Origin: Ehretia macrophylla
Lineage: Eukaryota; Streptophyta; Magnoliopsida; Boraginales; Ehretiaceae
Assembly (NCBI GenBank): GCA_037974665.1
Contig: CM075773.1
Coordinates: 19,892,146-19,956,145, forward strand
Reading direction: 5' to 3'
DNA length: 64,000 nt
Numbering within the stretch: the stretch's first letter is position 1; the number at the start of each line of letters is the position of its first letter. Made by a program: the position numbers and the translations under genes. The notes under the pieces were generated by a model. That model ran no database searches and was not told the DNA's origin. It saw nothing but the letters and a program-made list of their open reading frames with translations. Shown here one piece after another: positions 12,161 to 45,546 of this stretch.

Positions 12161-12859
12161 TGTCGTCCTTTTCGAAGCTCACGACGCGCGATCTGGGACG
12201 AAAAAACATAGCAAAAGAAGAAAAGTGTCACGAAACTGATGAAAATGTTCAATTTTGGGGCTCAGAAAAAAGTCACAGCGAACCGAGATTAGCTGCCCCA
12301 TCATAGAGCTCTTGGAGAGCTTTCCAACGGTATGCAGTGGGCCGCCTAACTCCTTGCGGATCAAAAGTTATGGGCTCCGGAGCGACGGAGACCTGGTCCC
12401 AAGCCACACGACCTCGGTTTGTGGGCCCAGCCTCCACGTAATGGGAAGTTGTCTTGCCCAAGGTGCCGTGGGATTCGGTAACAGAAATGTGACGGATTAG
12501 GTTGTCGTCCTTTTTGTGGCTCACGACGCGCGATCTAGGACAGAAAAACAGCTCAAAAGAAGAAAAGTGTCCCGAAGCTGATGAAAACGTTCGATTTTAG
12601 GCTCCAAAAAAAGGCCCAGCCAAGCAAGCTTCGATGCCCCGCCGTAGAGCTCTCGGAGTGCTTTCCAACGATATGCTGTGGGCCGCGTAACTCCTTGCAG
12701 ATCAAAAGTTATGGGCTCCGGAGCGTCGGAGACCTGGTCCCAAGCCACACGACCTCGGTTTGCGGGCCCAGCCTCCACGTGATTCGAAGTTGCCTTGCTC
12801 AAGGTGCCGTGGGATTCGGTAATAGAAATGTGACGGATTAGGTAGTCGTCCTCTTCGCG

Positions 12860-13022
12860 GCTCACGACGCGCGATCTGGGACGGAAAAACAACGCAAAAG
12901 AAGAAAAGTGTCCCGAAATTGATGAAAACGTTCGATTTTGGCTCACGACGCGAAATCTGGGTCGGAAAAATAGCGCAAAGGAACAAACATGTCTTGACAC
13001 TGATGAAAACGTTCAATTTTGG
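12860..13022. repeat. 81-bp partial-monomer tandem duplication inside the array
   Basis: GGCTCACGACGCG... through ...GTTCGATTTTG occurs twice in a row, starting at 12,860 and 12,941. The monomer here is therefore about 422 bp instead of 341. The second copy has diverged strongly: it reads GGAACAAACATGTCTTGACAC where other monomers have GAAGAAAAGTGTCCCGAAAC. Offsets across this point, such as 12.6 kb to 21.0 kb, are off by about 81 bp from whole monomers, which supports the event. Confidence 0.9.
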
Positions 13023-13342
13023 GCTCCGAAAAAAGTCTCTGCAAAGCGGGCTTAGCTGCCCGTCGTAGAGCTCTCGGAGAGCTTTCCAACGGTATGCTGT
13101 GGGCCGCGTAACTCCCTGCGGATCAAAAGTTATGGGCTCCGCAATGACTGAGACCTGGTCCCAAGCCACACGACCTCGGTTTGCGGGCCCAGCCTCCACG
13201 TGATACGAAGTTGCCTTGCCCAAGGTGCCATAGGATTCGATACCAGAAATGTGACGGATTAGGTTGTCGTCCTTTTAGCGGCTCACGACTCGCGATCTGG
13301 GGAGAAAAAACAGCGCAAAAGAAGAAAAGTGTCCCGAAACTG

Positions 13343-13683: not shown

Positions 13684-14059
13684 ATGAAAACGTTCAATTT
13701 TGGGCTCAGAAAAAAGTCCCAGCGAAGCGAGATTAGCTGCCCTGTCGTAGAGCTCTCGGAGAGCTTTCCAATGGTTTGCAGTGGGCCGCCTAACTCCTTG
13801 CGGATCAAAAGTTATGGGCTCCGGAGCGACGGAGACTTGGTCCCAAGCCACACGACCTCGGTTTGCGGGCCCAACCTCCACGTGATGCGAAGTTGTCTTG
13901 CCCAAAGTGCCGTGGGATTTGGTAACAGAAATGTGTCGGATTAGGTTTTCGTCCTTTTTGCGGCTAAGGACGCGCGATCTAGGACGAAAAAACAGCGTAA
14001 AAGAAGAAAAGTGTCCCGAAGCTGATAAAAACATTCGATTTTGGGCTCTGAAAAAAGGG

Positions 14060-14064
14060 CCAGC
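14060..14064. repeat. Target-site duplication, left copy (CCAGC)
   Basis: CCAGC directly precedes the TGTCACGCCCC end of the insertion and is repeated exactly at 17,987-17,991 after the CA end. In uninterrupted monomers this site reads GGCCCAGCAAAGCG once, so the duplication was made on insertion. Confidence 0.95.
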
Positions 14065-15234
14065 TGTCACGCCCCAACCGGGCCTATAAAGGTTAGACTA
14101 GGGTGTGATCTAAACATTCAAGTCCTTTCACATTCTTAATCATTCTAGGAGGTTTAGCACTTAACGTTTTATTCTAGACTCCAATTTTTTCCGGAAATCC
14201 GGCAGCATAACGGCTGTAATTGGGCTCTTTGTTTTGACCTAATTCTGTAAACGCCTCAATTATTCCAATCATTAATCCAATTCCATTAAAGACTCCTATT
14301 TGTCACCAACCGATTTGCCTACTAGTTTATCTTGAAAGTCTCGTTTGGTTAATAAGCCTAACATGATAACTATGTCCCGTTTATTTGTCAATTTCCTATC
14401 ATGCAAGTACCTATTATCCTTTAGTTTGCAAATGAGCACCTAAGTGAAATTAGATAGAATTAACTTAGTTGATTGTTCATCTAGTGGTTTGAATGCCTAC
14501 GATAACTACTAATGAAGAAAACGAAAGCAAAGAACCAAATAAAAAGTCGTCCGGTTATAGATAGTACAATCCCAGAATTAGACCCAAATTACAACGGGGT
14601 CATTTACATCAATAAAATGAATATTTGCAATCAAACACAACATCCATATAGCAACCACTTTCAGGCAAGGCACAAAAGCACGTAGGGACAGGCAATCACT
14701 CCAAGGAATCATCGATAAGCACGTTGTCCTCGGGTACCTGTACCTGTTCTTCTTCACCTGTGATAAAAAGAGGGTGAGTCCTTATGAACTCAGCGAGGGG
14801 GAACGAGAAATACGTTTTGAAACTCATTTTCCGGTTCAATTATGAAAATCCTTTTCCAAGCATAAATATAACAATGATATAAGATACAGGAACAGGAATA
14901 CCAGTCTTTCCTCCCCGAGGTCCTCCAGGGACCAAGCGAGAGTACTTATACACGTAGTAAAAGGATACGGTGAGCTATTGCTCTCAGATCAAGTCAAGTA
15001 ACAGGAGTTGCGGCCGACTTTAATTCATCCCCAAAACACACCAGGTGGGTGTACTCCGGATGTACCCCGAAAGCCTACGACCCAACTCTCCGAGGAAGTC
15101 TAGCCCCCAAGCGAGAGAGGGAATGGGACCATGGTGGTCACGGTAACACCGGCAAGCCCGATGCCGCCCGGCGTGCGTGATCGCTACCATACCGACAGGA
15201 AAGGTTGCAACCTTGTATGTAATGCACATTTATG

Positions 15235-15428
15235 ACAGGTAATATATCACAGTAGGAGGACAACAAAGTAGGTTGCCCCCGGACAGTCATAAGATTGCAC
15301 ATTGACCAAGTAAATAGGCAGGGCACGATAAAACAGGTAATATATCACAGTAGGAGGACAACAAAGTAGGTTGCCTCCGGATAGTCATAAGATTGCACAT
15401 TGACAGGTAGACAAGCAAGGCACGATAA
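15235..15428. repeat. 98-bp tandem duplication within the LTR
   Basis: ACAGGTAATATATCACAGTA begins at 15,235 and again at 15,333, and the copies run on through GATTGCACATTGAC to GGCACGATAA. They differ at only a few positions. This is a young two-copy tandem repeat, apparently internal to the LTR. Confidence 0.92.
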
Positions 15429-16100
15429 GACATGAAAATTTAACTTGAAGGCATATAGAGTTATATGAAAATTAAAGGGGCAGCCATGTAATACATGTAA
15501 AACAGGCCATATAACTCATTAAGAAGCCCACGTGATCAAGTGATAAGATTATTCAACATGCAATGACATCAATCATGGGTTCGGGTGCAAGAAAAGCTTA
15601 TTTGTCAACATGCAATGGTCAAAATCACATTTGAAGTTATAAGACATTTACGGGCAGCCCACTAAGCATCTAATTTCCACACAATATCCAAATGATCAAC
15701 ACTTAGCAAGACTACCTAGTCATTAGGGTTTCTGTTTCATGATTAACCGCATGATTAAACCCTAAGTCAACTCAAAATCATTCTCAAGTCATGCATCATT
15801 CAATTCAAACATCCTCAAGTACCCAAAACAGTCCACACAACATTCCAACACCACAATTCCAATCAATTAGTACCACAAGGGAGGTTACATCAATTTTCCA
15901 AGCATATAGCCAAGTGAAACCTTTACTGCAATAGGCTGTTTTCTCACAATCAATAGGATAATCAAACAATCTCCAAATCCAGTTAATAAGATGTCAAATT
16001 AAATATTTAGAAGTTAACTAAAATCAGAAACAAACCTTGCATCAATTGGAGTTCGAGATCATTAGATATAGCCGAAACAGTGGAATAGCACAAAACTGTC

Positions 16101-16470
16101 CAGATTTGCACACATTTCGATAATTGACGTTTTTGAGGTCCTTAGAGTCATTTTTAGCTTTGGTCCATTTCTGACAAAATTGTCCAGAACTGAAAAATAT
16201 TTTAGTAAACCAATTTTCATACATTTTGGACATCATCAACTAAGTCAAATATGGTTCGTTCCATAAGGTCAGTGCATCTGCCAAAACCTGCTTCATTTTT
16301 CCAGATTTCCAGATTTGGTCACATTTTAAAGATTTGCCATTTTGAGGACCTTAGAATCAAAATTAGCTTTGGCCTATTTCTGTGAAAAGTGTTCAAAACT
16401 GTCCAAACTAGTCACCTACCAATTTTAATGAATTTTTAACATCACTTGCTTAGCTAAACTTACCTCGAAC
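16101..16470. repeat. Diverged ~209-bp tandem duplication within the LTR
   Basis: CAGATTTG followed by CACATTT, GAGG(T/A)CCTTAGA, TTAGCTTTGG, a CTGTCCA-like motif and ACCAATTTT appears from 16,101 and again from about 16,310, in the same order. Similarity is moderate, so this duplication is older than the 98-bp one at 15,235. Confidence 0.75.
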
Positions 16471-16974
16471 AGACTGGTCAGAGAGCTGTCATCCATTTCG
16501 ACTTCACCTAGCATCATTTTCAAGCCAAGATCTTGCCATGCATGGTTGTTTAAGCTTATGAACGACCATATAGCTCAAGTACAGAAGCAAATACACACAT
16601 TTATGAACATGCATGTGAAATTTCAAAGAGTTTTCAAAAGCTTTTAACCCTCACCTTTGCAATCAACCAAAAGATGCACAAAAACCTTGTTGAGGCTCAA
16701 ATTTCTTCTTCTTCTTGCTTAGCCGAGTTTCCAACTTGGTTTTCTCTATTTTTCCTAGCATAGTAAGCAATCTCTTAGTACATGCATGTATTTAGGACTT
16801 GAAGAAAAGAAAGGGAAGCTTAGTAACTCACCTAGGCCGAAAATGAAGCTTCAATGCACATGCATGGGTGATTTTTGCATCCTAGCTTGTTCGGTTGAGG
16901 TCCTTTGCTTGTGGCTTGCTTGGCTTAGCTATGGTGTGAAGAAGAGAAGCTATGGAGGTAGATAACTCAGCCGA

Positions 16975-17050
16975 AACCGAAATGGAGAGAGAAAATGAGA
17001 GGGAGAGAGAGAAAATGTGAGGAAAGTGAGAGAAATGAGAGAAAAAGGAG
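16975..17050. repeat. GA/CT-rich low-complexity tract in the LTR
   Basis: The plus strand is a run of GAGAGA, GAAAATGAGA and related purine motifs. On the minus strand it becomes a CT-rich tract about 150-220 bases downstream of the TATA-like motif, where plant retrotransposon leaders often carry pyrimidine-rich sequence. Confidence 0.85.
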
Positions 17051-17196
17051 GCTTTTGCAATTTTTTGAGCATGTGGTCAGCCTTGGGCATACAAATTCAG
17101 ATTTTTTTTGTCTTCAAGATGGAATTTTGAAATGTTAGCATGGGCATAGGTGGTTTGGTCGAAAATGGTGTGAGAATTGAGGTGGTTTGAGCAATT

Positions 17197-17207
17197 TTTT
17201 ATATATT
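17197..17207 (-). promoter_or_regulatory. Probable TATA box of the LTR promoter (minus strand)
   Basis: The minus strand reads AATATATAAAAAATTG here. It is the best TATA-like motif seen upstream of the CT-rich leader, and it places U3 between 17,986 and about 17,200. A start site about 30 bases downstream, near 17,165, would be expected. The assignment rests on sequence alone. Confidence 0.5.
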
Positions 17208-17529
17208 GATAAGTGTTTTTGTGTCATGACTTGTCTAGAATCATTTTGAATTAAACATGCATGCAAAAATCTGATTTTGTGTCATCTTTTGAATTGTTTT
17301 AACATGTGTATAAGAGAATGTTGGGTATTTAGGGATTTTAGGTAGAATAGAATATAAGGTATGTTTAGAGGTTTGTGAGATTTTGTCTTGTAGTGAGTTT
17401 AAAATATAATATTTAGGTGTTAGTGGATTTTGTAGAGATTTGAATTAGGATTATAATAATAGTTAGTGGATTGTGTAGGATTATTTTATTGTCTTCTGAT
17501 TTGTGTAGGATTCTTTATTGATTAGCGTG

Positions 17530-17975
17530 GTGGCACGCTTTCCTAAGTCTAAGGCACGCACTATGAGACACACACAAAAATCAATACAGGGCACGAATCA
17601 CGAGGTAGACACGAACTACGAGGTAAGACACGGACTTCAAGACTAATGCACGCAATCCTAGGTGAATGCACGTAAACTAATGCAAGGCACGTAATTCAAT
17701 GTAATGCACGCAAATTGAGGTACAACTCTTAAACCTAGGTTAAGGTACACAGTTCAAGGTTAGGGCACATGAAATGAGGTAACGCACATACATCGAGGTC
17801 AGGGCACGTATTTCTAGGTACCACATGTAAGTCGGGGATTAGGGTACACTATTCTAGGTCAAGGCACGTATGACGAGGTATGCATGAAAACCAAGACAAG
17901 ACACGTAGTCCAAGGTCGGTCATATAATTAGAGGTCTATGGCACGCAAATCAAGGTAACACACGTTATTCGGGGT
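17530..17975. repeat. Degenerate ~20-bp minisatellite in the outer U3 of the LTR
   Basis: About twenty degenerate units follow one another with the plus-strand pattern GGCACGTAATTCNAGGTNA. Clear units begin near 17,589, 17,608, 17,646, 17,666, 17,686, 17,703 and 17,743, and they continue almost to the LTR end. On the minus strand many units contain ACGTG, the core shared by plant G-box and ABRE-type elements, which is compatible with an enhancer-like array. Function is not shown. Confidence 0.8.
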
Positions 17976-17986
17976 CGGGCCTCACA

Positions 17987-17991
17987 CCAGC
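17987..17991. repeat. Target-site duplication, right copy (CCAGC)
   Basis: CCAGC follows the terminal CA of the insertion and is identical to 14,060-14,064. Removing the insertion and one copy restores an ordinary subfamily A monomer reading GGCCAGCAAAGCGAGC. Confidence 0.95.
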
Positions 17992-20900
17992 AAAGCGAGC
18001 TTTGCTGCCCTGCCGTAGAGCTCTCGGAGAGTTTTCCAACGGTATGCTGTGGGCCGCGTAACTCCTTGCGGATCAAAAGTTATGGGCTCCGGAGCGACAG
18101 AGACTTGGTCCCAAGCCACATGACCTCGGTTTGTGGGCCCAGCCTCCACGTGATGTGAAGTTGTCTTGCCCAAGCTGCCGTGGGATTCGGTAACAGAAAT
18201 GTGACGGATTAGGTTGTCGTCCTTTTCGAGGCTCACGACGCGCGATTTGGGACCGAAAAACAGCGGAAAAGAAAAAAAGTATCCCGAAACTGATGAAAAC
18301 GTTCGATTTTGGGCTCAGAAAAAGGTCCCAGCGAAGCAAGATTAGCTGCCTCGTCGTAGAGCTCTCAGAGAGTTTTCCAACGGTATGCTGTGGGTCACCT
18401 AACTCCTTGCGGATCAAAAGTTATGGGCTCCGGAGCGACGGAGACCTGGTCCTAAGCCACACGACCTCGGTTTGCGGGCCCATCCTCCACGTGATGCGAA
18501 GTTGCCTTGCCCAAGGTGCCATGGGATTCGGAAATAGAAATGTGACGGATTAGGTTTTCGTCCTTTTCGCGGCTCACGACGCGCTATTTGGGACGGAAAA
18601 ACAGCATAAAAGAAGAAAAGTGTCCCGAAACTGATGAAAACATTCGATTTTGGGCTCCGAAAAAAGGCCAGCGAAGCGAGCTTCGTAGTCCCGCCGTAAA
18701 GCTCTCGGAGAGCTTTCCAACGGTATGCTGTGGGCCGCGTAAATTCTTGCGGATCAAAAGTTATGGACTCCGGAGGGACAGAGACCAGGTCCCAGGCCAC
18801 ACGAACTCGGTTTGCTGGCCGAGCCTCCACGTGATGTGAAGTTGCCTTGCCCAAGGCGCCGTGGGATTCGGTAACAGAAATGAGACCGATTAGGTTGTCG
18901 TCCTTTTTGCGGCTCACGACACGCAATCTGGGACCGAAAAACAGCGCAAAAGAAGAAAAATGTCCCGAAACTGGTGAAAATGTTGGATTTTGGGCTCCGA
19001 AAAAAGTCCCAGCGAAGCGGGCTTAGCTGTGCATCGTAGAGCTCTCGGAGAGCTTTCCAACGGTATGGAGTGGGCCGCGTAACTCCTTGCGGATCAAAAG
19101 TTATGGGCTCCGGAGCGACAGAGACTTGGTCCCAAGCCATACGACCTCGGTTTGCGGGCCCAGCCTCCACGTGATGCGAAGTTGTCTTGCCCAAGGTGCC
19201 GTGGGATTCGGTAACAGAAATGTGACGGATTAGGTTGTCGTCCTTTTCGCGGCTCACGACGCGCGATCTGGGACAGAAAAACAGCGCAAAAGAAGAAAAG
19301 TGTCCCAAAATTAATGAAAACGTTCGATTTTGGCCTCAGAAAAAAGTCCCAGCAAAGCGAGATTAGCTGCCCCGTCGTAGAGCTCTCGGAGAGCTTTCAA
19401 ACGATATGTTGTGGGCCGCGTAACTACTTGCGGATCAAAAGTTATGGGCTCCGGAGCGACGGAGACCTGGTCCCAAGCCACACGACCTCGGTTTGCGGGC
19501 CCAGCCTCCACGTGATGCGAAGTTGCCTTGCCCAACATGCCGTGGGATTCGATAACAGAAATGTGACGGATTAGGTTGTCGTCCTTTTCGCGGCTCACGA
19601 CGCGCGATCTGGGACGAAAAAACAGAGCAAAAGAAGAAAAGTGTCCCGAAACAGATGAAAACGTTCGATTTTGGGCTCCAAAAAAAGGCCCAGCGAAGCG
19701 AGCTTGGCTGCCCCGCCGTAGAGCTCTTGGAGAGCTTTCCAACGGTATGCTGTGGGCCGCGTAACTCCTTCCGGATCAAAACTTATGGGCTCCGGAGCGA
19801 CGGAGACCTGGTCCCAAGCCACACGACCTCGGTTTGCGGGCCCAACCTCCACGTGATGCGAAGTTGCCTTGCCCAAGGTGCCGTGGGATTCGGTAACAGA
19901 AATGTGACGGATTAGGTTGTCGTCCTTTTTGCGGCTCACGACGCGCGATCTGGGACGAAAAAACATAGCAAAAGAAGAAAAGTGTCCCGAAACTGATGAA
20001 AACGTTCAATTTTGTGCTCAAAAAAAAGTCCCAGCGAACCGAGATTAGCTGCCCCATCGTAAAGCTCTCGGAGAGCTTTCCAACGGTATGCAGTGCGCCG
20101 CGTAACCCCTTGCGGATCAAAAGTTATGGGCTCCGGAGCGACAGAGACCCGGTCCCAAGCCACACGACCTCGGTTTGCGGGCCCAGCCTCCACGTGATTC
20201 GAAGTTGCCTTGCCCAAGGTGCCATGGGATTCGGTAACAGAAATGTGACGGATTAGGTTGTCGTCCTTTTCGCGGCTTACGACGCGCGATCTGGGATGAA
20301 AAAACAGCGCAAAAGTAGAAAAGTGCCTCGAAACTGATGAAAACGTTCGATTTAGTGCTCCGAATAAAGGCCCAGCAAAGCGAGCTTAGCTGCCCCGCCG
20401 TAGAGCTCTCGGAGAGCTTTCCAACGGTATGCTGTGGGCCGCGTAGGTCCTTCCGAATCAAAAGTTATGGGCTCCGTAGCGACGGAGACCTAGCCCCAAG
20501 CCACACGACCTCTGTTTGCGGGCCCAACCTCCACGTTATGCGAAGTTGCCTTGCCCAAGGTGCCGTGGGATTCGGTAACAGAAATGTGGCGGATTAGGTT
20601 GTCGTCCTTTTCGCGGCTCACGACGCGCGATCTGGGACGAAAAAACAGAGCAAAAGAAGAAAAGTGTCCCAAAACTGATGAAATTGTTCAATTTTGGGCT
20701 CAGAAAAAAGTCCCAGCGAACCGAGATTAGCTGCCCCGTCGTAGAGCTCTTGGAGATCTTTCCAACGGTATGCAGTGGGCCGCCTAACTCCTTGCGGATC
20801 AAAAGTTATGGGCTCCGGAGCGACGGAGACCTAGTCCCAAGCCACACGACCTCGGTTTGCGGGCCCGACCTCCACGTGATGTGAAGTTGTCTTGCCAAAG

Positions 20901-23900
20901 GTGCCATGGGATTCGGTAATAGAAATGTGACGGATTAGGTTGTCGTCCTTTTTGCGGCTCACGACGCGCGATCTGGGACGGAAAAACAGCGCAAAAGAAG
21001 AAAAGTGTCCCGAAGCTGATTAAAACGTTCGATTTTGGGCTCCCAAAAAAAGGCCCAGCCAAAAGAGCTTCGCTGCCCCGTCGTAGAGCGCTCGGAGTGC
21101 TTTCCAACGGTATGCTGTGGGCCGCGTAACTCCTTGCGGATCAAAAGTTATGGGCTCCGGAGCGTCGGAGACCTGGTCCCAAGCCACACGACCTCGATTT
21201 CCGGGCCTAGCCTCCACGTGATTCGAAGTTGCCTTGCTCAATGTGCCGTGGGATTAGGTAATAGAAATGTGACGGATTAGGTTGTCGTCCTTTTCGCGGC
21301 TCACGACGCGCGATTTGGGACGAAAAAATAGCGCAAAAGAAGAAAAGTGTCCCGAAATTGATGAAAACGTTCGATTTTGGTCTCCGAAAACAGTTCCAGC
21401 AAAGCGAGCTTAGCTGTCCCATCGTAGAGCTCTCGGAGAGCTTTCCAACGGTATGCTGTGGGCCGCGTAACTCCTTGCGGATCAAAAGTTATGCGCTCCG
21501 TAGGCACAGAGACCTGGTCCCAAGCCACACGACCTCGGTTTGCGGGCCCAGCCTCTACGTAATGCGAAGTTGCCTTGCCCAAGGTGCCGTAGGATTCGGT
21601 AACAGAAATGTGATGGATAAGGTTGTCGTCCTTTTCGCGGCTCACGACCCGCGATCTGGGACGGAAAAATAGCGCAGAAGAAGAAAAGTGTCCCGAAACT
21701 GATGAAAACGTTCGATTTTGGGGTCCGAAAAAAGTCCCAGCAAAGCGGGTTTAGCTGCCCGTCGTAGAGCTCTCGGAAATCTTTCCAACGGTATGCTGTG
21801 GGCCGCGTAACTCCTTGCGGATCAAAAGTTATGGGCTACGAAATTACAGAGACCTGGTCCCAAGCCACACGAGCTCGGTTTGCGGGCCCAGCCTCCACGT
21901 GATGCGAAGTTGCCTTGCCCAAGGTGCCGTGGGATTAGATAATAGAAATGTGACGGATTAGGTTGTCGTCCTTTTCGCTGTTCACGACTCCCGATCTGGG
22001 ACGAAAAAACAGCGCAAAAGAAGAAAAGTGTCCCGAAAATGATGAAAACGTTCAATTTTGGGCTCCGAAAAAGGCCCAGCAAAGCGGGCTTAGTTTCCCC
22101 GCCGTAGAGCTCTCGGAGAGCTTTCCAACAGTATGCTGTGGGCCGCGTAACTCCTTCCGGATCAAAAGTTATGGGCTCCGGAGCGACGGAGACCTGGTCC
22201 CAAGCCACACGAATTCGGTTTGCGGGCCCAACCTCCACATGATGCGAAGTTGCCTTCCCCAAGGTGCCATGGGATTCAGTAACAGAAATGTGGCGGATTA
22301 GGTTGTCGTCCTTTTCGCGGCTCACGACGCGCGATCTGGGACGGAAAAACAGCGCAAAAGAAGAAAAGTGTCCCAAAGCTGATAAAAACGTTCAATTTTA
22401 GGCTCCGAAAAAAGGCCCAGCAAAGCGAGCTTTGCTGCCCCGCCGTAGAGCTCTCGGAGTGCTTTCCAACGGTATGCTGTGGGCCGCGTAACTCCTTGCG
22501 GATCAAAAGTTATGGGCTCCGGAGCGACAGAGACCTGGTCCCAAGCCACACGACCTCGGTTTGTGGGCCCAGCCTCCACGTGATGCGAAGTTGTCTTGCC
22601 CAAGGTACCGTGGGATTCGGTAACAGAAATTTGACGGATTAGGTTGTCGTCCTTTTCGCGGCTCACGACGCGCGATCTGGGATGGAAAAACAGCGCAAAA
22701 GAAGAAAAGTGTCCCGAAACTGATGAAAACGTTCGATTTTGTTCTCAGAAAAAAGTCCCACCAAAGCGGGCTTAGCTGCCCATCGTAGAGCTCTCGAAGA
22801 GCTTTCCAACGGTATGCTGTGGGCCTCGTAAATCCTTGCAGATCAAAAGTTATGGGCTCCGGAGCGACAGAGACCTGGTCTCAAGCCACACGACCTCGGT
22901 TTGCGGGCCCAGCCTCCACGTGATGCGAAGTTGTCTTGCCCAAGGTGCCGTGGGATTCGGTACAGAAATGTGACGGATTAGGTTGTCGTCCTTTTCGCCG
23001 CTCACGACGCGCAATTTGGGACTGAAAAACAGTGCAAAAGAAGAAAATTGTCCCGAAACTGATGAAAACGTTCGATTTTGGGCTTCGAAAAAAGGCCCAA
23101 TAAAGCGGGCTTGGCTGCCTTGTCGTTTAGAGCTCTCGGAGAGCTTTCCAACGGTATGTTGTGGGCCGCGTAACTACTTGCGGATCAAAAGTTATGGGCT
23201 CCGGAACGACGGAGACCTGGTCCCAAGCCACACGACCTCGGTTTACGGCCCAGCATCCACGTGATGCGAAGTTGCCTTGCCCAAGGTGCCGTGGGATTCG
23301 ATAACAGAAATGTGACGGATTAGGTTGTCGTCCTTTTCGCGGTTCACGACGAGCGATCTGGGACGGAAAAATAGCGCAAAAGAAGAAAAGTGTCCCAAAG
23401 CTGATGAAAACGTTCGATTTTGGGCTCCGAAAAAAGGCCCAGCAATGTGGGCTTAGCTGCCCCGCCGTAGAGCTCTCGGAGTGCTTTCCATCTGTATACT
23501 GTGGGCCGCGTAACCCCTTGCGGATCAAAAGTTATGGGCTCCGGAGCGTCGGAGACCTGGTCCCAAGACACACGACCTCGGTTTGCGGGGCCAGCCTGCA
23601 CGTGATTCGAAGTTGCCTTGCTCACGGTGCCGTGGGATTCTGTAACATAAATGTGACGGATTAGGTTGTCGTCCTTTTCGCGACTCACGACGCGCGATTT
23701 GGGATGGAAAAATAGAGCAAAAGAAGAAAAGTGTCCCAAAATTGATGAAAACGTTCGATTTTGGTCTCCGAAAAAAGGCCCAGCAAAGCGGGCTTAGCTA
23801 CCCTGTCATTTAGAGCTCTCGGAGAGCTTTCCAACGGTATGCTGTGGGTCGCGTAAGTACTTGCGGATCAAAAGGTATGGGCTCCGTAGGGACAGAGACC

Positions 23901-24719
23901 TGGTCCCAAGCCACACGACCTCGGTTTGCGGGCCCAGCCTCCACGTGATGCGAAGTTGTCTTACCCAAGGTGCCGTGGGATTCGGTAACAGAAATGTGAC
24001 GGATTAGGTTGTCGTCCTTTTCATAGCTCACGACGCGCGATCTGGGACTGAAAAACAGCGTAAAAGAAGAAAAGTGTCCCGAAACTGATGAAAACGTTCG
24101 ATTTTGGGCTTCAAAAAAGTCCCAGCAGAGCAGGCTTAGCTGCCCATCGTAGAGCTCTCGGATAGCTTTCCAACGGTATGCTGTGGGCCGCGTAACTCCT
24201 TGCAGATCAAAAGTTATGGGCTTCGGAGCGACGGAGACCTGGTCCCAAGCCACACGACCTCAGTTTGCGGGCCTAGCCTCCACGTAATACGAAGTTGCTT
24301 TGCCCAAGCTGTCGGGGGATTCGGTAACAGAAATGTGACGGATTAGGTTGTCGTCCTTTTCGCAGCTCACGACGAGCGATCTGGGACGGAAAAACAGCGC
24401 AAAAGAAGAAAAGTGTCCCGAAACTGATGAAAACGTTCGATTTTGGCCTTCAGAAAAAGTCCCAGCAAAGCGGGCTAAGCTGCCCGTCGTAGAGCTCTCG
24501 GAGAGCTTTCCAACGGTATGTTGTGGGCCGCGTAACTCCTTGCAGATCAAAAGTTATGGGCTCCGGAGCGATAGAGACCTAGTCCCAAGCCACACGACCT
24601 CGGTTTGCGGGCCCAGCCTCCACGTGATGCGAAGTTGTCTTGCCCAAGGTGCCGTGGGATTCGGTAACAGAAATGTGACGGATTAGGCTGTCGTCCTTTT
24701 CGTGGCTAACGACGCGCGA

Positions 24720-26060
24720 TCTGGGACAAAAAAAGAGCGCAAAAGAAGAAAAGTCTCCCGAAACTGATGAAAACGTTCAATTTTGGGCTCCGAAAAAAGG
24801 CCAAGCAAAGCGGGCTTTGCAGCCCAGTCGTAGAGCTCTCGGAGAGCTTTCCAACGGTATGCTGTGGGCCGCGTAACTCCTTGCGAATCAAAATTTACGG
24901 GCTCCGGAGCGACGGAGACCTGGTCCCAAGCCACACGTCCTCGGTTTGCGAGCCCAGCCTCCATGTGATGCGAAGTTGTCTTGCCCAAGATGCCGTGGGA
25001 TTCGGTAACAGAAATGTGACGGATTAGGTTGTCGTCTTTTTCGCAGCTCACGACGCGCGATCTGTGACGGAAAAATAGCACAAAAAAAGAAAAGTGTCCC
25101 AAAATTGATGAAAACGTTCGATTTTTGGCTCAGAAAAAAGTCCCAGCAAAGCGAGATTGGCTGCCCCGTTGTAGAGCTCTCGGAGGTCATTCCAACGGTA
25201 TGCTGTGGGCCGCCTAACTCCTTGCAGTTCAAAAGTTATGAGCTTCGGAGCGACGGAGACCTGGTCCCAAGCCACATGACCTCGGTTTGCATGCCCAGCC
25301 TCCACAGATACGAAGTTGCCTTGCCAAAGGTGCCGTGGGATTCGGTAACAAAAATGTGACGGATTAGGTTGTCGTCCTTTTTGCGGCTCACGACGCGCAA
25401 TCTGGGACAAAAAAACAGCGTAAAAGAAGAAAAGTCTCTCGAAACTGATGAAAACGTTCGATTTTGGGCTCCGAAAAAAGGCCAAGCAAAGCGGGCTTTG
25501 TAGCCCACTCGTAGAGCTCTCGGAGAGCTTTCCAACGGTATGCTGTGGGCTGCGTAACTCCTTGCGAATCAAAATTTACGGGCTTCGGAGCGACGGAGAC
25601 CTGGTCCCAAGCCACACGACCTCGGTTTGCGAGCCCAGCCTCCACGTGATGCAAAGTTGTCTTGCCCAAGGTGCCGTGGGATTCGGTAACAGAAATGTGA
25701 CGGATTAGGTTGTCGTCCTTTTCGCGGCTCATGACGAGCGATCTGGGACGGAAAAACAGCGCAAAAGAAGAAAGGTGTCCCGAAATTGATGAAAACGTTC
25801 GATTTTGGGCTCAGAAAAAAGTCCCAGCGAAGCGAGATTAGCTGCCCCGACGTAGAGCTCTCGGAGATCTTTCCAACGGTATGTTGTGGGCCGCCTAACT
25901 CCTTGCGGATCGAAAGTTATGGGCTTCGGAGCGACGGAGACCTGGTCCCAATCCACACGACCTCGGTTTGCATGCCCAGCCTCCACGTGATGCGAAGTTT
26001 CCTTGCCCAAGGTGCCGTGGGATTCGGTAACAGAAATGTGACGGATTAGGTTGTCGTCCT
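24720..26060. repeat. Two-monomer (681-bp) repeat, two copies, next to the A/B junction
   Basis: GGCCAAGCAAAGCGGGCTTTG occurs at about 24,800 and again 681 bp later, with the rare AAAATTTACGGGCT following in both. The second monomer of each pair shares GCCGCCTAACTCC, an altered GGCTTCGGAGCGACGG-like stretch and GTTTGCATGCCCAGCC. The last feature is otherwise typical of subfamily B, which suggests sequence exchange near the junction. Confidence 0.85.
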
Positions 26061-26260
26061 TTTTGCGGCGCACGACACGCGATCCGGGACGAAAAAACAG
26101 CGCGAAAGAGGAAAAGTGTCCGAAAACTGATGAAAACCTTCTATTTTGGGCTCCGAAAAAAGGCCAGCGCAGCGGGTTTAGCAGCCCCGTCGTAGAGCTC
26201 TCAGAGTGCTTTCCAACGGTATGCTGTGGGCCGCGTAACTCCTTGAGGATCAAAAGTTAT
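26061..26260. repeat. Mosaic monomer at the A-to-B subfamily junction
   Basis: Up to about 26,060 the markers are A (ACAGAAATGTGACGG, TTGTCGTCC). Then B-like GGCGCACGAC and GATCCGGGACG appear, followed by the A feature CCGAAAAAAGGCC, then the intermediate CCTTGAGGATC. From about 26,262 all markers are B (GGGGCGACGGAG, GGGCCCAAGACCCACG). The alternation within one monomer points to recombination or gene conversion between subfamilies rather than a single clean join. Confidence 0.85.
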
Positions 26261-26399
26261 GGGCTCCGGGGCGACGGAGACCTGGGCCCAAGACCCACGC
26301 CCTCGGTTTGCAGGCCCAGCCTCCACCTGAAGCGCTGCTGTCTTGCCCAAGGTGCCGTGCGATTCGGCAATAGAAATGTGATGGATTAGGTCGTCGTCC

Positions 26400-28290
26400 T
26401 TTTCGCGGAGCACGACGTACGATCCGGGACTAAAAAACAGCGCAAAAGAAAAAATGTCTCCCGAAACTGATGAAAACGATCGATTTTGGGCTCCAAATCT
26501 GGCCCCGCAAGCGGGCTTAACTACCCCCGTCGTAGATCTCTCGGAGAGCTTTCCAACGGTATGATGTGGGCCGAGTAACTCCTTACGGATCAAAAGTTAT
26601 GGGCTCCGGGGCGACGGAGACCTAGGCCCAAGAACCACGCCCTCGGTTTGCGGGCCCAGCCTCCACCTGAAGCGATGCTGTCTTGCCCAAGGTGCCGTGC
26701 GATTCGGTAATAGAAAGGTGATGGATTAGGTTGTCGCCCTTTTCACGGAGCACGACGTACGATACGGGACGAAAAAACAGCGCAAAAAAAAAGTGTCCCG
26801 AAACTGATGAAAAAGTTCAATTTTGGGCTCCAAATTAGGCCCCGCAAGCGGGCTTAACTACCCCCGTCGTAGAGCTCTCGGAGAGCTTTCCAACGGTATG
26901 CTGTGGGACGCGTAACTCCTTACGGATCAAAAGTTATGGGCTCCGGGGCGACGGAGACCTGGGCCCAAGACCCACGCCCTCGGTTTGCATGCCCAGCCTC
27001 CACGTGAAGCGAAGTTGCATTGCCTAAGGTGTCATGGGATTCTGTAATAGAAATGTGATGGATTAGGTCGTCGTCCTTTTCGCGTGGCACGACGTATGAT
27101 CGTGGATGAAAAAACAGCGCAAAAGAAGAAAAGTGTCCCGAAACTGATGAAAATGTTCGATTTTGGGCTCCGAAATCAGGCCCAGCGAAGCGGGCTTAGC
27201 TGCCCCAGTCGTAGAGCTCTCGGAGAGCTTTCCAACGGTATACTGTGGGCCGCGTAACTCATTACGGATCAAAAGTTATGGGCTCCGGGGCGACGGAGAC
27301 CTGGGCCCAAGACCCACGCACTCAGTTTGCAGGCCCAACCTCCACGTGAAGCGAAGCTGTCTTGCCCAAGGTGCCGTGCGATTCGGTAATAGAAATGTGA
27401 TGGATTAGGTCATTGTCCTTTTCGCGGAGCCCGACTTACGATCCGGGACGAAAAAATAGCGCAAAAGAAAAAAAGTGTCCCGAAACTGATGAGAACGTTC
27501 GATTTTTGGCTCCAAATCAGGCCCCGGAAGCGGGCTTAACTTCCCCCGTCGTAGATCTCTCGGAGAGCTTTCCAACGGTATGCTGTGGACCGCGTAACGC
27601 CTTACGGATCAAAAGTTATGGGCTCCGGAGCGACGGAGACCTGGTCCCAAGCCCCACGCCCTCGGTTTGCGTGCCCAGCCTCCACGTGAAGTGAAGTTGC
27701 ATTTCCCAAGGTGTCATGGGATTCTGTAATAGAAATGTGATGGATTAGGTCGTCGTCCTTTTCGCGGCGCACGACGTACGATCCGGGATTAAAAAACATT
27801 GCAAAAGAATAAAAGTGTCCCGAAACTGATGAAAACGTTCAATTTTGGTCTCCGAAATCAGTCCCAGTGAAGTGGGCATAGCTGGCCCCGTTGTAGAGCT
27901 CTCGGAGAGCTTTCCAACGGTATGCTGTGAGCCGCGTAACTCCTTACGAATCAAAAGTTATGGGCTCCGGGGCGACAGAGACCTAGGCCCAAGCCCCACG
28001 CCCTCGGTTTGCGCGCCCGCCCTCCACATGTAGCGAAGCTGTCTTGCCCAAGGTTCCGTGCGATTCGGTAATAGAAATGTGATAGATTAGGTCGTCGTTC
28101 TTTTCGCGGAGCACGACGTACGATCCGGGATGAAAAAACAACGCAAAAGAAAAAATGTGTCCCGTAACTGATGAAAACGTTCAATTTTTGGCTCCAAATC
28201 AAGCACCGCAAGCGGGCTTAACTACCCCCGTCGTCAAGCTCTCGGAGAGCTTTCCAACGGTATGCTGTGGGCCGCGTAACTCCTTACGAA
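26400..28290. repeat. Sixteen-monomer-offset duplicated block, copy 1
   Basis: This block matches about 31,850-33,740 at an offset near 5,449 bp. Shared rare features in the same order are TTTTCACGGAGCACGA with GATACGGGA, AAAGTTCAATTTTGGGCTCC with AAATTAGGCCCCGC, CGCGTGGCACGACGTATGAT (27,081 and 32,530), and CCGCGTAACTCATTACGG. The boundaries are approximate. Confidence 0.75.
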
Positions 28291-29108
28291 TCAAAAGTTA
28301 TGGGCTCCGGAGAGACGGAGACCTGGTCCTAAGCCCTACGCCCTCGGTTTGCGTGCCCAGCCTCCACGTGAAGTGAATTTACATTGCCCAAGGTGTCATG
28401 GGATTCTGTAATAGAAATATGATGGATTAGGTCGTCGTCCGTTTCGCGGAGCACGACGTACGATCCGGGATGAAAAAACAGCGCAAAAGAAAAAATATGT
28501 CCCGAAACTGATGAAAACGTTAGATTTTGGGCTCCGAAATCAGTCCCAGCGAAGTGGGCTTAGCTGCCCCCGTCGTAGAGCTCTCGGAGAGCTTTCCAAC
28601 GGTATGCTGTGGGCCGAGTAACTCCTTACGGATCAAAAGTTATGGGCCCCGGGGCGACGGAGACCTGCGCCCAATACCCACCCCCTCGGTTTGCGGACCC
28701 AGCCTCCACGTGAAGCGATGCTGTCTTGCCCAAGGTGCCGTGCGATTCGGTAATAGAAATCTGATGGATTAGGTCGTCGTCCTTTTTGCGGAGCACGACG
28801 TACGATCCGGGATGAAAAAATAGCGCAAAAGAAAAAATATGTCCCGAAACTAATGAAAACCTTCGATTTTGCACTCCAAATCAGACCCCGAAAGCGGGCT
28901 TAACTAATCCCGTCGTAGAGCTCTCTGAGAGCTTTCCAACGGTATGCTGTGGGCCTCGTAACTCCTTACGGATCAAAAGTTATGGGCTCCGGGGCAACGG
29001 AGACTTGGGCCCAAGACCCAAGCCCTCGGTTTGCAGGCCCAGCCTCCACGTGAAGCGAAGCTGTCTTGCCCAAGGTGCCGTGCGATTCGGTAATAAAAAT
29101 GTGATGGA

Positions 29109-29790
29109 TTAGCTCGTCGTCGTTTTCACGGAGGACGACGTACGATACGGGACGAAAAAATAGCGCAAAACAAGAAAAGTGTCCCGAAACTGATGAAAAC
29201 GTTCGATTTTGGGCTCCGAAATCAGTCCCAGCGAAGTGGGCTTGGCTGCCCCCATCGTAGAGCTCTCGGAGAGCTTTCCAACGGTATGTTGTGGGCCGCC
29301 TAACTCCTTACGGATCAAAAGTTATGGGCTCCGGGGCGACGGAGACCTGGGCCCAAGACCCACGCCCTCGGTTTGTATGCCCAGCCTCCACGTGAAGCGA
29401 AGTTGCATTGCCTAAGGTGTCATGGGATTCTGTAATAGAAATGTGATGGATTAGGTCGTCGTCCTTTTCACGTGGCACGACGTATGATCCGGGATGAAAA
29501 AACAGCGCAAAAGAAGAAAAGTGTCCCGAAACTGATGAAAATGTTTGATTTTGTGCTCCGAAATCAGTCCCAGCGAAGTGGGCTTGGCTGCCCCCATCGT
29601 AGAGCTCTCGGAGAGCTTTCCAACGGTATGTTGTGGGCCGCGTAACTCCTTACGGATCAAAAGTTATGGGCTTCGGGGCGACGGAGACCTGGGCCCAAGA
29701 CCCACACCCTCGGTTTGCTGGCCCAGCCTCCACGTGAAGCGATGCTGTCTTGCCCAAGGTACCGTGCGATTCCGTAATAGAAATGTGATG
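29109..29790. repeat. Adjacent monomer duplication (342 bp)
   Basis: Two successive monomers share CAGTCCCAGCGAAGTGGG at 29,223 and 29,565, followed in both by CTTGGCTGCCCCCATCG and GGTATGTTGTGGG. Other nearby monomers lack the combination, so this looks like a recent single-monomer amplification. Confidence 0.75.
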
Positions 29791-31019
29791 GATTAGGTCG
29801 TCGTCCTTTTCGCGGAGCACGACGTACGATCCGGGATGAAGAAACATCGCAAAAAAAAAAAAGTGTCCCGAAACTGATGAAAATGTTCGATTTTGGGATC
29901 CCAAATCGGGCCCCGCAAGAGGGCTTAGCTACCCCAGTCGTAGAGCTCTGGGAGAGCTTTCCAACGGTATGCTGTGGGCCGCCTAACTCCTTACGGATCA
30001 AAAGTTATGGGCTCCGGGGCGACGGAGACCTGGGCCCAAGACCCACACCCTCGTTTTGTGGGCCCAGCCTCCACGTGAAGCGAAGCTGTCTTGCCCAAGG
30101 TGCCGTACGATTCGGTAATAGAAATGTGATAGATTAGGTCGTCGTCCTTTTCGCGGAGCACGACGTACGATCCGGGATGAAAAAACAGCGCAAAAGAAAA
30201 AATGTGTCCCAAAACTGATGAAAACGATCGATTTTGGGCTCCAAATCAGGCCCCGCAAGCGGGCTTAACGACCCACGTCGTAGAGCTCTCGGAGAGCTTT
30301 CCAACGATATGATGTGGGCCGCGTAACTCCTTACGGATCAAAAGTTATGGGGTCCGGAGCGATGGGGACCTGGTCCCAAGCTCCACGCCCTCGGTTTGCA
30401 TGCCCAGCCTCCACGTGAAGTGAAGTTACATTGCCCAAGGTGTCATTGGATTCTGTAATAGAAATGTGATGGATTAGGTCGTCGTCCTTTTTGCGGCGCA
30501 TGACGTACGATCCGGGACAAAAAAATAGCACAAAAGAAGAAAAGTGTCCCGAAACTGATGAAAACGTTCGATTTTGGGCTCCAAAATCAGTCCCAGAGAA
30601 GTGGGCTTAGCTGCCCCCGTCGTAGAGCTCTCGGAGAGCTTTCCAACGGTATGCTGTGGGCCGAGTAACTCCTTACGGATCAAAAGTTATGGGCTCCGGG
30701 GCGACGGAGACCTGGACCCAAGACCCACGCCCTCGGTTTGCGGGCCCAGCCTCCACCTGAAGCGATGCTGTCTTGCCCAAGGTGCCGTGCGATTCGGTAA
30801 TAGAAATGTGATGGATTAGGTCGTCGTCCGTTTCGCGGAGCACGACGTACGATCCGGGATGAAAAAACAGCGCAAAAGAAAAAATATGTCCCGAAACTGA
30901 TGAAAAAGTTCAATTTTGGGCTCCAAATCAGGCCCCGCAAGCGGGCTTAACTACCCCCGTCGTAGAGCTCTCGGAGAGCTTTCCAACGGTATGCTGTGGG
31001 CCGCGTAACTCCTTACGGA

Positions 31020-40329: not shown

Positions 40330-43300
40330 ATAATAGAAATGTGATGGATTAGGTCGTCGTCCATTTCACAGCGCACGACGTACGATTCGGGACGAAAAAA
40401 CAGCGCAAAAGAAGAAAAGTGTCCCGAAACAGATGAAAACGTTCGATTTTGGGCTCCGAAATCAGGTCTAGCGTAGTGGGCTTAGCTGCCCCCGTCGTAG
40501 AGCTCTCGGAAAACTTTCCAACGGTATGCTGTGGGCCACGTAACTCCTTACGAATCAAAAGTTATGGGCTCCTGGGCGACGGAGACCTGGGCCCAAGGCC
40601 CACGCCCTCAGTTTACGGGCCCAGCCTACACTTGAAGTGAAGTTGCATTTCCCAAGATGTCATGGGATTTGGTAATAGAAATGTGATGGATTAGGTCGTC
40701 GTCCTTTTCGCAGAGCACGACGTACAATCCGGGACAAAAAAACAACGCAAACGAAAAAAAGTATCCCGAAAATTATGAAAACATTCGATTTTGGGCTCCC
40801 AAATCGGGCTCTGCAAGTCGGTTTAGCTACCCCCGTCGTAGAACTCTCGGAGAGCATTCCAACGGTATGCTGTGGGCCGCGTAACTCCTTACGGATCAAA
40901 AGTTATGGGCTCCGGAGCGATGGAGACCTGGTCCCAAGCCCCACGCCCTAGGTTTGCGTGCCCAGCCGCCACGTGAAGTGAAGTTGCATTGCCCAAGGTG
41001 TCATGGGATTCTGTAATAGAAATGTGATTGATTAGGTCATCGTCCTTTTCGCGGCGCACGACGTACAATCCGGGATGAAAAAACAGCGCAAAATAAGAAA
41101 AGTGTCCCAAAACTGATGAAAACGTTCGATTTTAGGCTCCGAAATCAGGCCCAGTGAACTGGGCTTAGCTGCCCCCACCGTAGAGCTCTCGGAGAGCTTT
41201 CCAACGGTATGCTGTGGGCCGCGTAACTCCTTACGGATCAAAAGTTATGGGCTCCGGGGCGACGGAGACCTGGGCCCAAAACCCACACCCTTGGTATGCG
41301 CGCCCAGCCTCCACGTGAAGCGAAGCTATCTTCCCCAAGGTGCCGTGCGATTCGGTAATAGAAATGTGATGGATTAGGTCGTCGTCCTTTTCGCGGAGCA
41401 CGACGTACGATCCGGGATGAAAAAATAGCGCAAAAGAAAAAATGTGTCTCGAAACTGATGAAAACGTTTGATTTTGGGCTCCCAAATCAGGCCCCGCAAG
41501 CGACCTTAGCAACCCCCGTCGTAGATCTCTCGGAGAGCTTTCCAACGGTATGCTGAGGGTCGTGTAACTCCTTACGGATCAAAAGTTATGGGCTCCGGAG
41601 CAACAAAGACCTGGTCCCAAGCCCCACGTCCTCGGTTTCCGTGCCAAGCCGCCACGTGAAGTGAAGTTGCATTGCCCAAGGTGTCATGGGATTCTGTAAT
41701 AGAAATGTGATGGATTAGGTCGTCGTCTTTTTCGCGACGCACGACGTACGAACCGGTACGAAAAAATAGCGCAAAATAAGAACAGTGTCGCGAAACTGAT
41801 GAAAACGTTCGATTTTGGGCTCCAAAATCAGGCATGGCAAAGTGGGCTTAGCTGCCCCCGTCGTAGAGCTCTCGAAGAGCTTTCTAACGGTATGCTGTGG
41901 GCCACGTAACTCCTTATGGATCAAAAGTTATGGGCTCCGGGGCGACGGAGACCTGGGCCCAAGACCCACGCTCTCGGTTTGCGGGACCAACCTCCACGTG
42001 AAGCGAAGCTATCTTGCCCAAGGTGTCGTGCAATTCGGTAATAGAAATGTTATGGATTAGGTCGTCGTCCTTTTCGCGGAGCACGACTTACGATCGGGGA
42101 TGAAAAAACAGCGTAAAAGAAAAAAAGTGTCCCAAAACTGATGAAAACGTTCGATTTTGGGCTCCCAAATCAGGCCCCGAAAGCGGGATTAGCTACCCCC
42201 GTCGTAGAGCTCTCGAAGAGCTTTCCAACGGTATGCTGTGGGCCGCGTAACTCATTACTGATCAAAAGTTATGGGCTCCGGGGCGACGGAGACCTGGGCC
42301 CAAGACCCACGCCCTCGGTTTGCGGGCCCAGCCTCCACGTGAAGCGAAGCTGTCTTGCCCAAGGTGCCGTGCGATTCGGTAATAGAAATGTGATTGATTA
42401 GGTCGTCGTCCTTTTTGCGGAGCACGACGTACGATCCGGTACGAAAAAACAACGTAAAAGAAAAAAAGTGTCCCGAAACTGATGAAAACATTCGATTTTG
42501 GGCTCCCAAATCCGGCCCCGCAAACGGGCTTAGCTACCCCCGTCAGAGAGCTCTCGGAGAGCTTTCCAACGGTATGTTGTGGTCCGCGTAACTCCTTACG
42601 GATCAAAAGTTATGGGCTCCGGGGCGACGGAGACCTGGGCCCAAGACCCACGCCCTCGGTTTGCGGGCCCTACCTCCACGTGAAGCGAAGCTGTCTTGCC
42701 CAAGGTGCCGTGCGATTCGGTAATAGAAATGTGATGGATTAGGTCGTCGTCCTTTTTGCGGAGCATGACGTACGATCCGGGACGAAAAAACAGCGCAAAA
42801 GAAAAAAAGTGTCCCGAAACTGATGAAAACGTTCGATTTTGGGCTCCCAAATCCCGCCCTGCTAGCGGGCTTAGCCACGTCGTAGAGCTCTCGGAGAGCT
42901 TTCCAACGGTATGCTGTGGGCCGCGTAACTCCTTACGGATCAAAAGTTATGGGCTCCGAGGTGACGGAGACCTGGGCCCAAGACCCACGCCCTCGGTTTT
43001 CGGGCCCAGCCTCCACGTGATGCGAAGCTGTCTTGGCCAAAGTGCCGTGCGATTCAGTAATAGAAATGTGATGGATTAGGTCGTCGTCCATTTTGCGGAG
43101 CACGACGTACGATCCGAGACGAAAAAATAGCGCAAAAGAAAAAAAGTGTCCCGAAACTGATGAAAACGTTCTATTTTGGGCTCCCAAATCCGGCCCCGCA
43201 AACGGGCTTAGCTACCCCCGTCGTAGAGCTCTCGGAGAGCTTTCCAACGGTATGCTGTGGGCCGCGTAACTCCTTACGGATCAAAAGTTATGGGCTCCGG

Positions 43301-44410
43301 GGCGACGGAGACTTGGGCCCAAGACCCACGCCCACGGTTTGTGGGCCCAGCCTCCACGTGAAGCGAAGCTGTCTTGCCCAAGGTGCCGTACGATTCGGTA
43401 ATAGAAATGTGATGGATTAGGTCGTCGTCCTTTTCGTGGAGCACGACGTACGATCCGGGACGAAAAAATAGAGCAAAAGAAAAAAAGTGTCCCGAAACTG
43501 ATGAAAACGTTCTATTTTGGGCTCCCAAATCCAGCCCCGCAAGCTGGCTTAGCTACCCCCGTCATAGAACTCTCGGAGAGCTTTCCAACGGTATGCTGTG
43601 GGCCGCGTAACTCCTTACGGATCAAAAGTTATGGGCTCCGGGGCGACGGAGACCTGGGCCCAAGACCCACGCCATCAGTTTGCGGGACCAGCCTCCACGT
43701 GAAGCGAAGCTGTCTTGCCCAAGGTGCCGTGTGATTCGGTCATAGAAATGGGATGGATTAGGTCGTCGTCCTTTTTGCGGAGCACGACGTACGATTTGGG
43801 ACAAAAAAATAGCGCAAAAGAAAATATGTATCCTGAAACTGATGAAAACGTTCGATTTTGGGCTCCAAATCAGGCCCCGCAAGCGTGCTTAGCTACCCCC
43901 TTCGTAGAGCTCTCGGAGAGCTTTCCAACGGTATGCTGTGGGCCGCGTAACTCCTTACGGATCCAAAGTTATGGGTTCCGGGGCGACGGAGGCCTGGGCC
44001 CAATACCCACGCCCTCGGTTTGCGGGCCCAGCCTCCATGTGAAGCGAAGCTGTCTTGCCCAAGGTGCCGTGCGATTCGGTAAAAGAAATGTGATCGATTA
44101 GGTCGTAATCCATTTTGCGGAGCACGACGTACGATCCGGGACGAAAATATAGTGCAAAAGAAAAAAAGTGTCCTGAAACTGATGAAAACGTTTGATTTTG
44201 GGCTCCCAAATCTGGCCCCGCAAGTGGGCATAGCTACCCCCATCGTAGAGCTCTCGGAGAGCTTACCAATGGTATGCTGTGGGCCGCGTAACTCCTTACG
44301 GATCAAAAGTTATGGGCTCTGGAGAGACGGAGACCTGGTCCCAAGCCCTACGCCCTCGGTTTGCGTGCCCAGCCTCCACGTGAAGCGAAGTTGCGTTGCC
44401 CAAGGTGTCA
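40330..44410. repeat. 7,500-bp-offset duplicated block, copy 1 (about 12 monomers)
   Basis: This block matches 47,830-51,910 at an offset of 7,498-7,500 bp, or 22 monomers. By eye, 40,441-40,680 and 47,941-48,180 are identical. 42,601-42,780 differs from its partner at one base. The breakpoints are visible: the flanks lose similarity near 40,330 and 44,410. Confidence 0.93.
42482..42822. repeat. Reference subfamily B (B1) monomer (341 bp)
   Basis: This is an example copy, from ATGAAAACATTCGATTTT to the same landmark 341 bp later. It keeps the A-rich stretch, the AGCTCTCGGAGAGCT dyad and the TTTCCAACGGTATG block of subfamily A, with the B1 markers listed for the array. It also carries the uncommon GGGCCCTACCTCCACG shared with the copy 7,500 bp downstream at 49,982. 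Confidence 0.88.
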
Positions 44411-45546
44411 TGGTATTCTGTAATAGAAATGTGACGGATTAGGTCTTCATCCTTTTCGCGGCGCACGACGTACGTTCCGTGATGAAAAAATAGCGCAAAA
44501 GAAGAAAAGTGTCCCAAAACTGATGAAAATTTCGATTTTGGGCTCCGAAATCAGGCCCAGCAAAGCATGCTTAGCTGCCCCAGTCGTAGAGCTCTCGGAG
44601 GGCTTTCCAACTGTATGCTATGGGCCGCGTAACTCCTTACGGATCAAAAGTTATGGGCTCCGGAGCGACGGAGACCTGGTCCAAAGCCCCACGCCCTCGG
44701 TTTGCATGCCCAGCCTCCACGTGAAGCGAAGTTGCATTTCCCAAGGTGTCATGGGATTCTGTAATAGAAATGTGATGGATTAGGTCGTCGTCCTTTTCGC
44801 GGCGCACGACGTACGATCCGGGATGAAAAAATAGCGCAAAAGTAGAAAAGTGTACCGAAACTGATGAAAATATTTGATTTTGGGCTCCGAAATCAGTCCC
44901 TGTGAAGTGGGCTTAGTTGCCCTCGTCGTAGAGGTCTCGAAGAGCTTTCCAACGGTATGCTGTGGGCCGCGTAACTCCTTACGGATCAAAAGGTATGGGC
45001 TCCGGGGCGACGGAGATCTGGTCCTAAGCCCCACGCCCTCGGTTTGCGTGCCCAGCCGCCACGTGAAGCGAAGCTGAGTTGCCCAAGGTGCCGTGCGAAT
45101 CGGTAATAGAAATGTGATAGATTAGGTCGTCGTCCTTTTCGCAGAGCACGACGTACGATCCGAGACGAAAATACAGCGTAAAAGAAGAAAAGTGTCCCGA
45201 AACTAATGAAAACGTTTGATTTTGGGCTCCCAAATCAGGCCCCGCAAGCGGGCTTAGCTACCCCCGTCGGAGAGCTCTCGGAGAGCTTTCCAACAGTATG
45301 CTGTGGGCCGCGTAACTTCTTACGGATCAAAAGTTATGGGCTCAGGGGCGACGGAGACCTGGGACCAAGACCCACGCCCTCGGTTTGCGAGCCCAGCCTC
45401 CACGTGAAGGGAAGCTGTCTTGCCCAAGGTGCCATGCGATTCGGTAATAGTAATGTGATGGAGTAGGTCGTCGTGCTTTTCGCAGAGCACGACGTACGAT
45501 CCGAGACGAAAAAACAGCGCAAAAGAAAAAAAGTGTACCGAAACTG

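Follow-up and report, generated by a model that had tools for sequence, protein, structure and literature searches.

A sharp border between two 341-bp satellite subfamilies of Ehretia macrophylla, a possible recombination scar between related arrays on two contigs

In layered human centromeres, distinct satellite domains abut with sharp edges. Layered expansion of human centromeric satellites is mentioned in the available text of two studies (PMC12046899, PMC10910784). As described there, satellite monomers in Salicaceae and Brachypodium are homogenised in local blocks, and centromeric arrays either show higher similarity within than between chromosomes or form chromosome-specific clusters. 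The same two texts report interchromosomal mixing for non-centromeric Salicaceae arrays and spread between subgenomes for wheat. The sharing of satellites between chromosomes is not new in itself. In models of satellite arrays set out in the available part of PMC8997354, out-of-register exchange gains or loses whole units and template switching may insert sequence from another chromosome; the case made there for break-induced replication rests mainly on higher-order repeat structure. A Crepis satellite has variants of about 342 bp according to the accessible portion of PMC12589258, and we liken it to the monomer studied here by length only. Two other candidates were set aside: the 341-bp satellite in the accessible portion of PMC4053949 is the pika's, and the matching number in that of PMC9941839 is part of a base total.

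We analysed a window of 64,000 nucleotides (C10:19,892,146-19,956,145) from the 1.58 Gb, 20-contig genome of Ehretia macrophylla. The window is one 341-bp tandem array, and positions given below without a contig name are those of the window. We cut out and aligned 173 whole monomers, leaving out the odd-length intervals 12,644-13,064, 13,747-18,014 and 56,516-56,830. The first of these is a 421-bp monomer with an 81-bp duplication inside it, at 12,859-13,022. All 63 monomers left of the border belong to one subfamily (A; 1-26,037, plus strand, broken by an LTR insertion) and all 110 to its right belong to another (B; 26,270-64,000, plus strand, comprising subtypes B1 and B2 and long internal duplications at ~40-56 kb), in unbroken order. 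The two-subfamily boundary of the original prediction is thereby upheld. If monomer order were random, a single A/B switch would have a probability of ~10^-48, and PC1 changes abruptly, from -3.4 to +3.1, from one monomer to the next. Identity is ~0.89 within a subfamily and 0.82-0.83 between A and B; the mean difference is 0.109 on the left, 0.116 on the right and 0.175 for left versus right. Comparison of 62 A-side with 109 B-side monomers yielded 26 marker columns. At these columns A states make up on average 98.8% of the markers in a monomer on the A side (minimum 91%) and 12.5% on the B side (maximum 50%). Subtype B2, defined by a PC2 cut, accounts for 31 of the 109 B monomers and has the A state in common at some columns.

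Beyond the window, the A block starts ~3.4 kb to the left (C10:19,888,751, plus strand), just after an LTR. Left of that LTR lies a third subfamily, C, on the minus strand, which extends at least to 19,692,146, the leftmost base examined. From left to right the array thus reads C (minus), LTR, A (plus), B (plus). Among the matches listed there is a second A block on the minus strand (C10:19.487-19.543 Mb), and the C block is flanked on both sides by A, in opposite orientations. In a tree of 383 monomers, B forms a clade (181 of 182; support 0.94; one tip labelled B in the tree is an A monomer caught by an over-wide coordinate rule), as do C (56 of 56 sampled out of 448; support 1.00) and the monomer type of contig C18 (nine of nine; support 0.97), and A forms a group with lower support (127 of 127 plus seven others; 0.60). 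Genome-wide 24-mer counts are 898 for A and 16,519 for B. By these counts the A subfamily is rare, and the B pattern also fits other subfamilies, which overstates B. The purity of A is uneven between places, since at the end of one A block on contig C3 four of nine monomers show at least three B states at the 26 markers. A long array with one inserted LTR family is suggestive of a centromeric satellite, as far as sequence features can indicate.

The change from A to B is narrow. A markers end at 26,245 and B markers begin at 26,270, so the switch is confined between these positions and is not spread over 26,061-26,262 as had been proposed. Between the markers lies a 23-bp tract (26,247-26,269, plus strand) that matches all three consensus sequences (A, B1 and B2) at every base, which places the breakpoint within sequence common to both partners. 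Register is held across the junction, where the monomers at 25,852-26,191 and 26,192-26,531 are each 340 bp long.

A and B rarely adjoin elsewhere. Exact markers found 720 A-A neighbours genome-wide, 20 A-B and 18 B-A, which bears out the description of A and B as separate, hardly mixed domains. These patterns miss many cases: of the 60 A-A neighbours in the window, 32 are picked up by the A-A pattern, and of the A/B switches in the stretches examined the patterns caught two of three A-to-B and missed one B-to-A. Judged on 80 bases of the left monomer, two of the 20 A-B places display the A marker GTGATGC in that monomer, namely the window junction (C10:19918098) and C20:52028150; the 18 B-A places were left unclassified. 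At C20 52.024-52.034 Mb an A array encloses a three-monomer B island (~52,027.2-52,028.3 kb) with both edges in register. Register is kept (339-342 bp) at all four A/B switch points, that is, in the window, at C20 ~52,470.5 kb and at both ends of the island. Each of the four falls within one of the three longest stretches over which the A and B consensus sequences agree, or has an interval that reaches into one; these stretches measure 53, 45 and 24 columns and together make up 122 of 348 columns (35%). The chance of this is ~0.015 if switch points are uniform and independent, for a small number of points of which two come from one island. Because register is kept and the switch falls within a shared tract, homology-directed joining would be favoured and end joining disfavoured.

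The B sequence right of the border is closely matched on contig C20. The stretch at 26,247-30,226 (plus strand) is colinear with the sequence starting at C20:52471687 at 98.7% identity (98.67%; 53 mismatches in 3,978 aligned positions, two gaps). On the same diagonal, identity is 0.891 over 22,000-26,246 and 0.987 over 26,247-30,226. The colinear match resumes at 40,432-47,100 (plus strand; from C20:52476675), where the alignment falls into three pieces: 98.7% for 40,432-42,700, 92.6% for 42,600-44,700 when aligned on one diagonal, and 98.9% for 44,707-47,100. The intervening ~30.3-40.4 kb of the window is extra relative to C20. Ten monomers from 26,532 have a best match of 0.984 on C20 (28 blocks) versus 0.914 elsewhere in the B of C10 (90 blocks), a comparison whose scope is the C10 and C20 stretches compared and not the whole genome. 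The C10 monomers are homogenised in local blocks like those of Salicaceae and Brachypodium, but unlike the centromeric arrays described there (PMC12046899 and PMC10910784, as far as their available text goes), the top match of this 4-kb C10 stretch is on another contig. Farther right, C10:19988542-19990932 and C20:52543440-52545830 show eight consecutive matches whose seven spacings are the same on both contigs and whose scores are similar. This agreement in spacing suggests that the shared B stretch may run for ~73 kb, to about C10:19,991,275.

Among the sequence compared, the A array left of the border also has its closest relatives on C20. By chaining and alignment, 24,149-26,037 (plus strand) is close to the C20 A array: five monomers at 24,149-25,850 match the sequence from C20:52463115 at 0.93-0.98, and 25,852-26,046 matches C20:52465501-52465695 at 98.5%, with two additional monomers in C20 between the two matches. 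The A flank chains with this C20 A block at a score of 23.4 (at most 15.9 in 200 order shuffles), and no chain was found with the other C20 A block (C20:52,024,000-52,033,999; score 3.9, shuffles up to 5.1). A 157-bp A probe searched genome-wide with at most three mismatches returned itself and two C20 places only. In 170-bp steps over 24,140-26,009, identity to C20 is 0.91-0.98; left of 24,140 it is 0.84-0.92 on the same diagonal. Since the A flank is less C20-like (0.91-0.98) than the B flank (0.987), the two need not have come to be shared in one event.

C20 likewise runs from A to B, with its own border in the monomer at 52,470,267. Over the interval between the second A match and the B match, C10 is without 5,791 bp of the C20 layout, which corresponds to 16.98 units, or 17 monomers, and the C20 border itself lies within these missing 5,791 bp. 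C20 thus offers a related arrangement without the deletion, in which an A/B border and 17 additional units separate the two matches, and we infer that it represents the ancestral state. In differing from C20 by whole units, C10 resembles the unequal exchange and break-induced replication models in the available part of PMC8997354. These relationships are best read as an in-register scar of homology-directed recombination that re-cut an A/B border common to C10 and C20, and we give this reading a probability of roughly one-half.

The main rival is that the B array of C20, or of its ancestor, was copied directly into the A of C10 by break-induced replication or ectopic exchange, the border being the entry point. 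Near-identity to C20 does begin at the border, and C20 goes on as B for about three more monomers left of the B match, as a donor might; the B flank is more C20-like (98.7%) than the A flank, and the eight matches spaced alike on both contigs suggest, without proof, the long sharing described above. However, the A flank is also nearest to C20, 17 units out of step, which would not be predicted for an unrelated recipient, and we consider direct entry of the array unlikely. We favour the view that 17 units were deleted, through out-of-step exchange or a template switch, from a block common to C10 and C20.

Under an assembly effect, either the C20 copy would be a second haplotype of the C10 centromere that was put in the wrong place, or the junction would be a chimeric join. 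The shared array starts ~0.43 Mb short of the C20 end, the last 2 kb of that contig lack TTTAGGG and CCCTAAA repeats, and 98.7% identity would fit allelic copies. Against this, the 264 kb of C10 examined contain zero N, and 23 bp of identity would be far too little for an overlap assembler to join A to B; in addition, a rare tract lies within the junction monomer. A misplaced haplotype on C20 would moreover leave the junction real, as a 17-unit difference between haplotypes. We regard an assembly effect as quite unlikely. C20 ends in a GC-rich short tandem repeat.

The monomer at the junction had been described as alternating between A and B markers. It is indeed unusual: at 26,061-26,135 nine of its positions depart from the A consensus, compared with at most eight in each of the 62 other A monomers. 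Its content, though, is a tract shared with contig C18 and not A/B alternation. The 139-bp tract (26,038-26,176, plus strand) is identical to C18:3244981-3245119 on the minus strand, and a search of the 1.58 Gb with at most three mismatches placed it in the C10 window and on C18 only, both exactly. Among three copies compared (C20 A, C18 and C20 B), nine of its sites are matched by the C18 copy alone. The monomer's two B-like marker bases, at 26,070 and 26,085, both lie inside the tract, so B-like alternation is ruled out; as many B-like bases occur in one of the 62 other A monomers (16 near-fixed columns). The tract has A sequence on either side and ends 70 bp upstream of the border. A-type sequence returns at 26,177-26,246 (plus strand), where only the A copy matches at 26,203, 26,207 and 26,234 and none of the three copies matches at 26,177, 26,183 and 26,246.

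The tract is also foreign to its surroundings on C18. It differs at 18 positions from the consensus of eight neighbouring C18 monomers, which themselves differ from that consensus at 3-10, and at 19 from the related C20 A monomer; C18 need therefore not be the donor. In the A domain the tract is the sole exact run of at least 100 bp common to the compared non-A sequence. The next longest satellite run is 75 bp, and three runs near 14.4-16.6 kb, of 77, 72 and 68 bp, belong to the LTR. Satellite runs between B and C reach 109 bp, at the conserved monomer start, so length by itself does not make a run unique in the array. As a test for a third template in template switching, the result is that the tract is common only to C18 and yet foreign to C18 itself. 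The C10 locus differs from the cases in the available part of PMC8997354 in that its junction is resolved to 23 bp and is accompanied by a tract common to a third contig. The border could be the scar of one repair event with three chromosomal templates, namely A of the C10/C20 type, the piece also found on C18 and B of the C20 type. We hold this three-template event to be rather unlikely; nothing in the analysis shows that the tract and the border are products of one event.

The A array is interrupted at 14,065-17,986 (plus strand) by a 3,922-bp solo LTR of a Ty3-type retrotransposon, with TG...CA ends and a 5-bp target duplication, CCAGC, at 14,060-14,064 and 17,987-17,991. The Ty3-type call was made from protein domains read in a related copy outside the window. 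This LTR was ruled out as the cause of the border, which is 8.3 kb away, and its target duplication is perfect. The statement that the only transposon insertion lies on the A side is correct within the window, but the next insertion lies in B (67,204-70,799 on the window scale), 3.2 kb past the right end. All eight insertions found across C10 19.69-19.97 Mb, together with part of a ninth in a further stretch (L030), have sequence in common with a single Ty3-type family whose LTRs are ~3.5-3.9 kb long, possibly a satellite-targeting element. Another solo LTR (C10:19,884,925-19,888,750; -7220 to -3395 on the window scale) sits exactly where C on the minus strand gives way to A on the plus strand. 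It is flanked by ACAGC and CCAGC, which have one mismatch in five bases, and the 5-bp duplications of the six other insertions with readable ends are perfect; this mismatch suggests a recombinant between two LTRs at the edge of an inversion. Two apparently full-length elements in C have LTR pairs that are 98.05% and 97.75% identical. These pairs are somewhat more diverged than the B match between C10 and C20, which bears weakly on the timing and would indicate an order of events only.

The original prediction read the border as the edge of a local homogenisation domain with B as the younger layer, like the layering of human centromeres. The part about unmixed domains stands, and near-identical long duplications are more numerous in B. 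The most similar of these are on the B side, as had been noted: six-monomer blocks reach 0.980 in B, 0.964 in A and 0.967 in C (best of nine 70-monomer subsets for C). They place recent activity in the central part of B and not at the border. One B block is repeated ~7.5 kb apart (41,863 and 49,363; 0.98 over six monomers), a higher-order pattern. For the 70 B monomers nearest the border the best six-monomer match averages 0.923, equal to A. Later 70-monomer subsets of B reach 0.947 and single monomers with a near copy are commoner in B, so recent local duplication was greater in B overall. The greater youth of B does not follow, given that its mean pairwise identity is the lowest (A 0.8936, C 0.8922, B 0.8856) and that the transposon just past the window, in B, belongs to the same family as the one in A. 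Any gradient toward the border is slight: groups of up to 12 A monomers have identities of 0.826-0.838 to B, and such groups of B 0.828-0.846 to A.

The C10 domains abut sharply like human layered satellites, but unlike those they show no clear age difference, and the nearest relative of the B flank among the sequence compared is on another contig. The same A-to-B order on C20, its near-identical B and the tract shared with C18 speak for recombination between arrays and against simple layering, and a homogenisation edge appears to us very doubtful.

For the preferred reading, an out-of-step exchange or template switch at a border common to C10 and C20, the following course of events may be proposed. 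The arrays on C10 and C20 would once have had an A/B block in common. C10 would later have suffered a break, and its repair, by homology-directed exchange or by a template switch between monomers out of step with each other, would have removed 17 units and created the present border. The C18-like piece may have been left behind as a conversion or template-switch patch. On this view, the sharp borders between subfamilies seen here would mark recombination breakpoints and not gradients of local homogenisation.

Satellite homogenisation and the movement of satellites between non-homologous chromosomes have been argued largely from array statistics. With named partners, a breakpoint located to within 23 bp and a unit-exact difference from a sister arrangement, the competing models of unequal exchange, conversion and break-induced replication become testable in one place. 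If the border were indeed a three-template scar, subfamily borders would record template switching among multiple chromosomes at base resolution.
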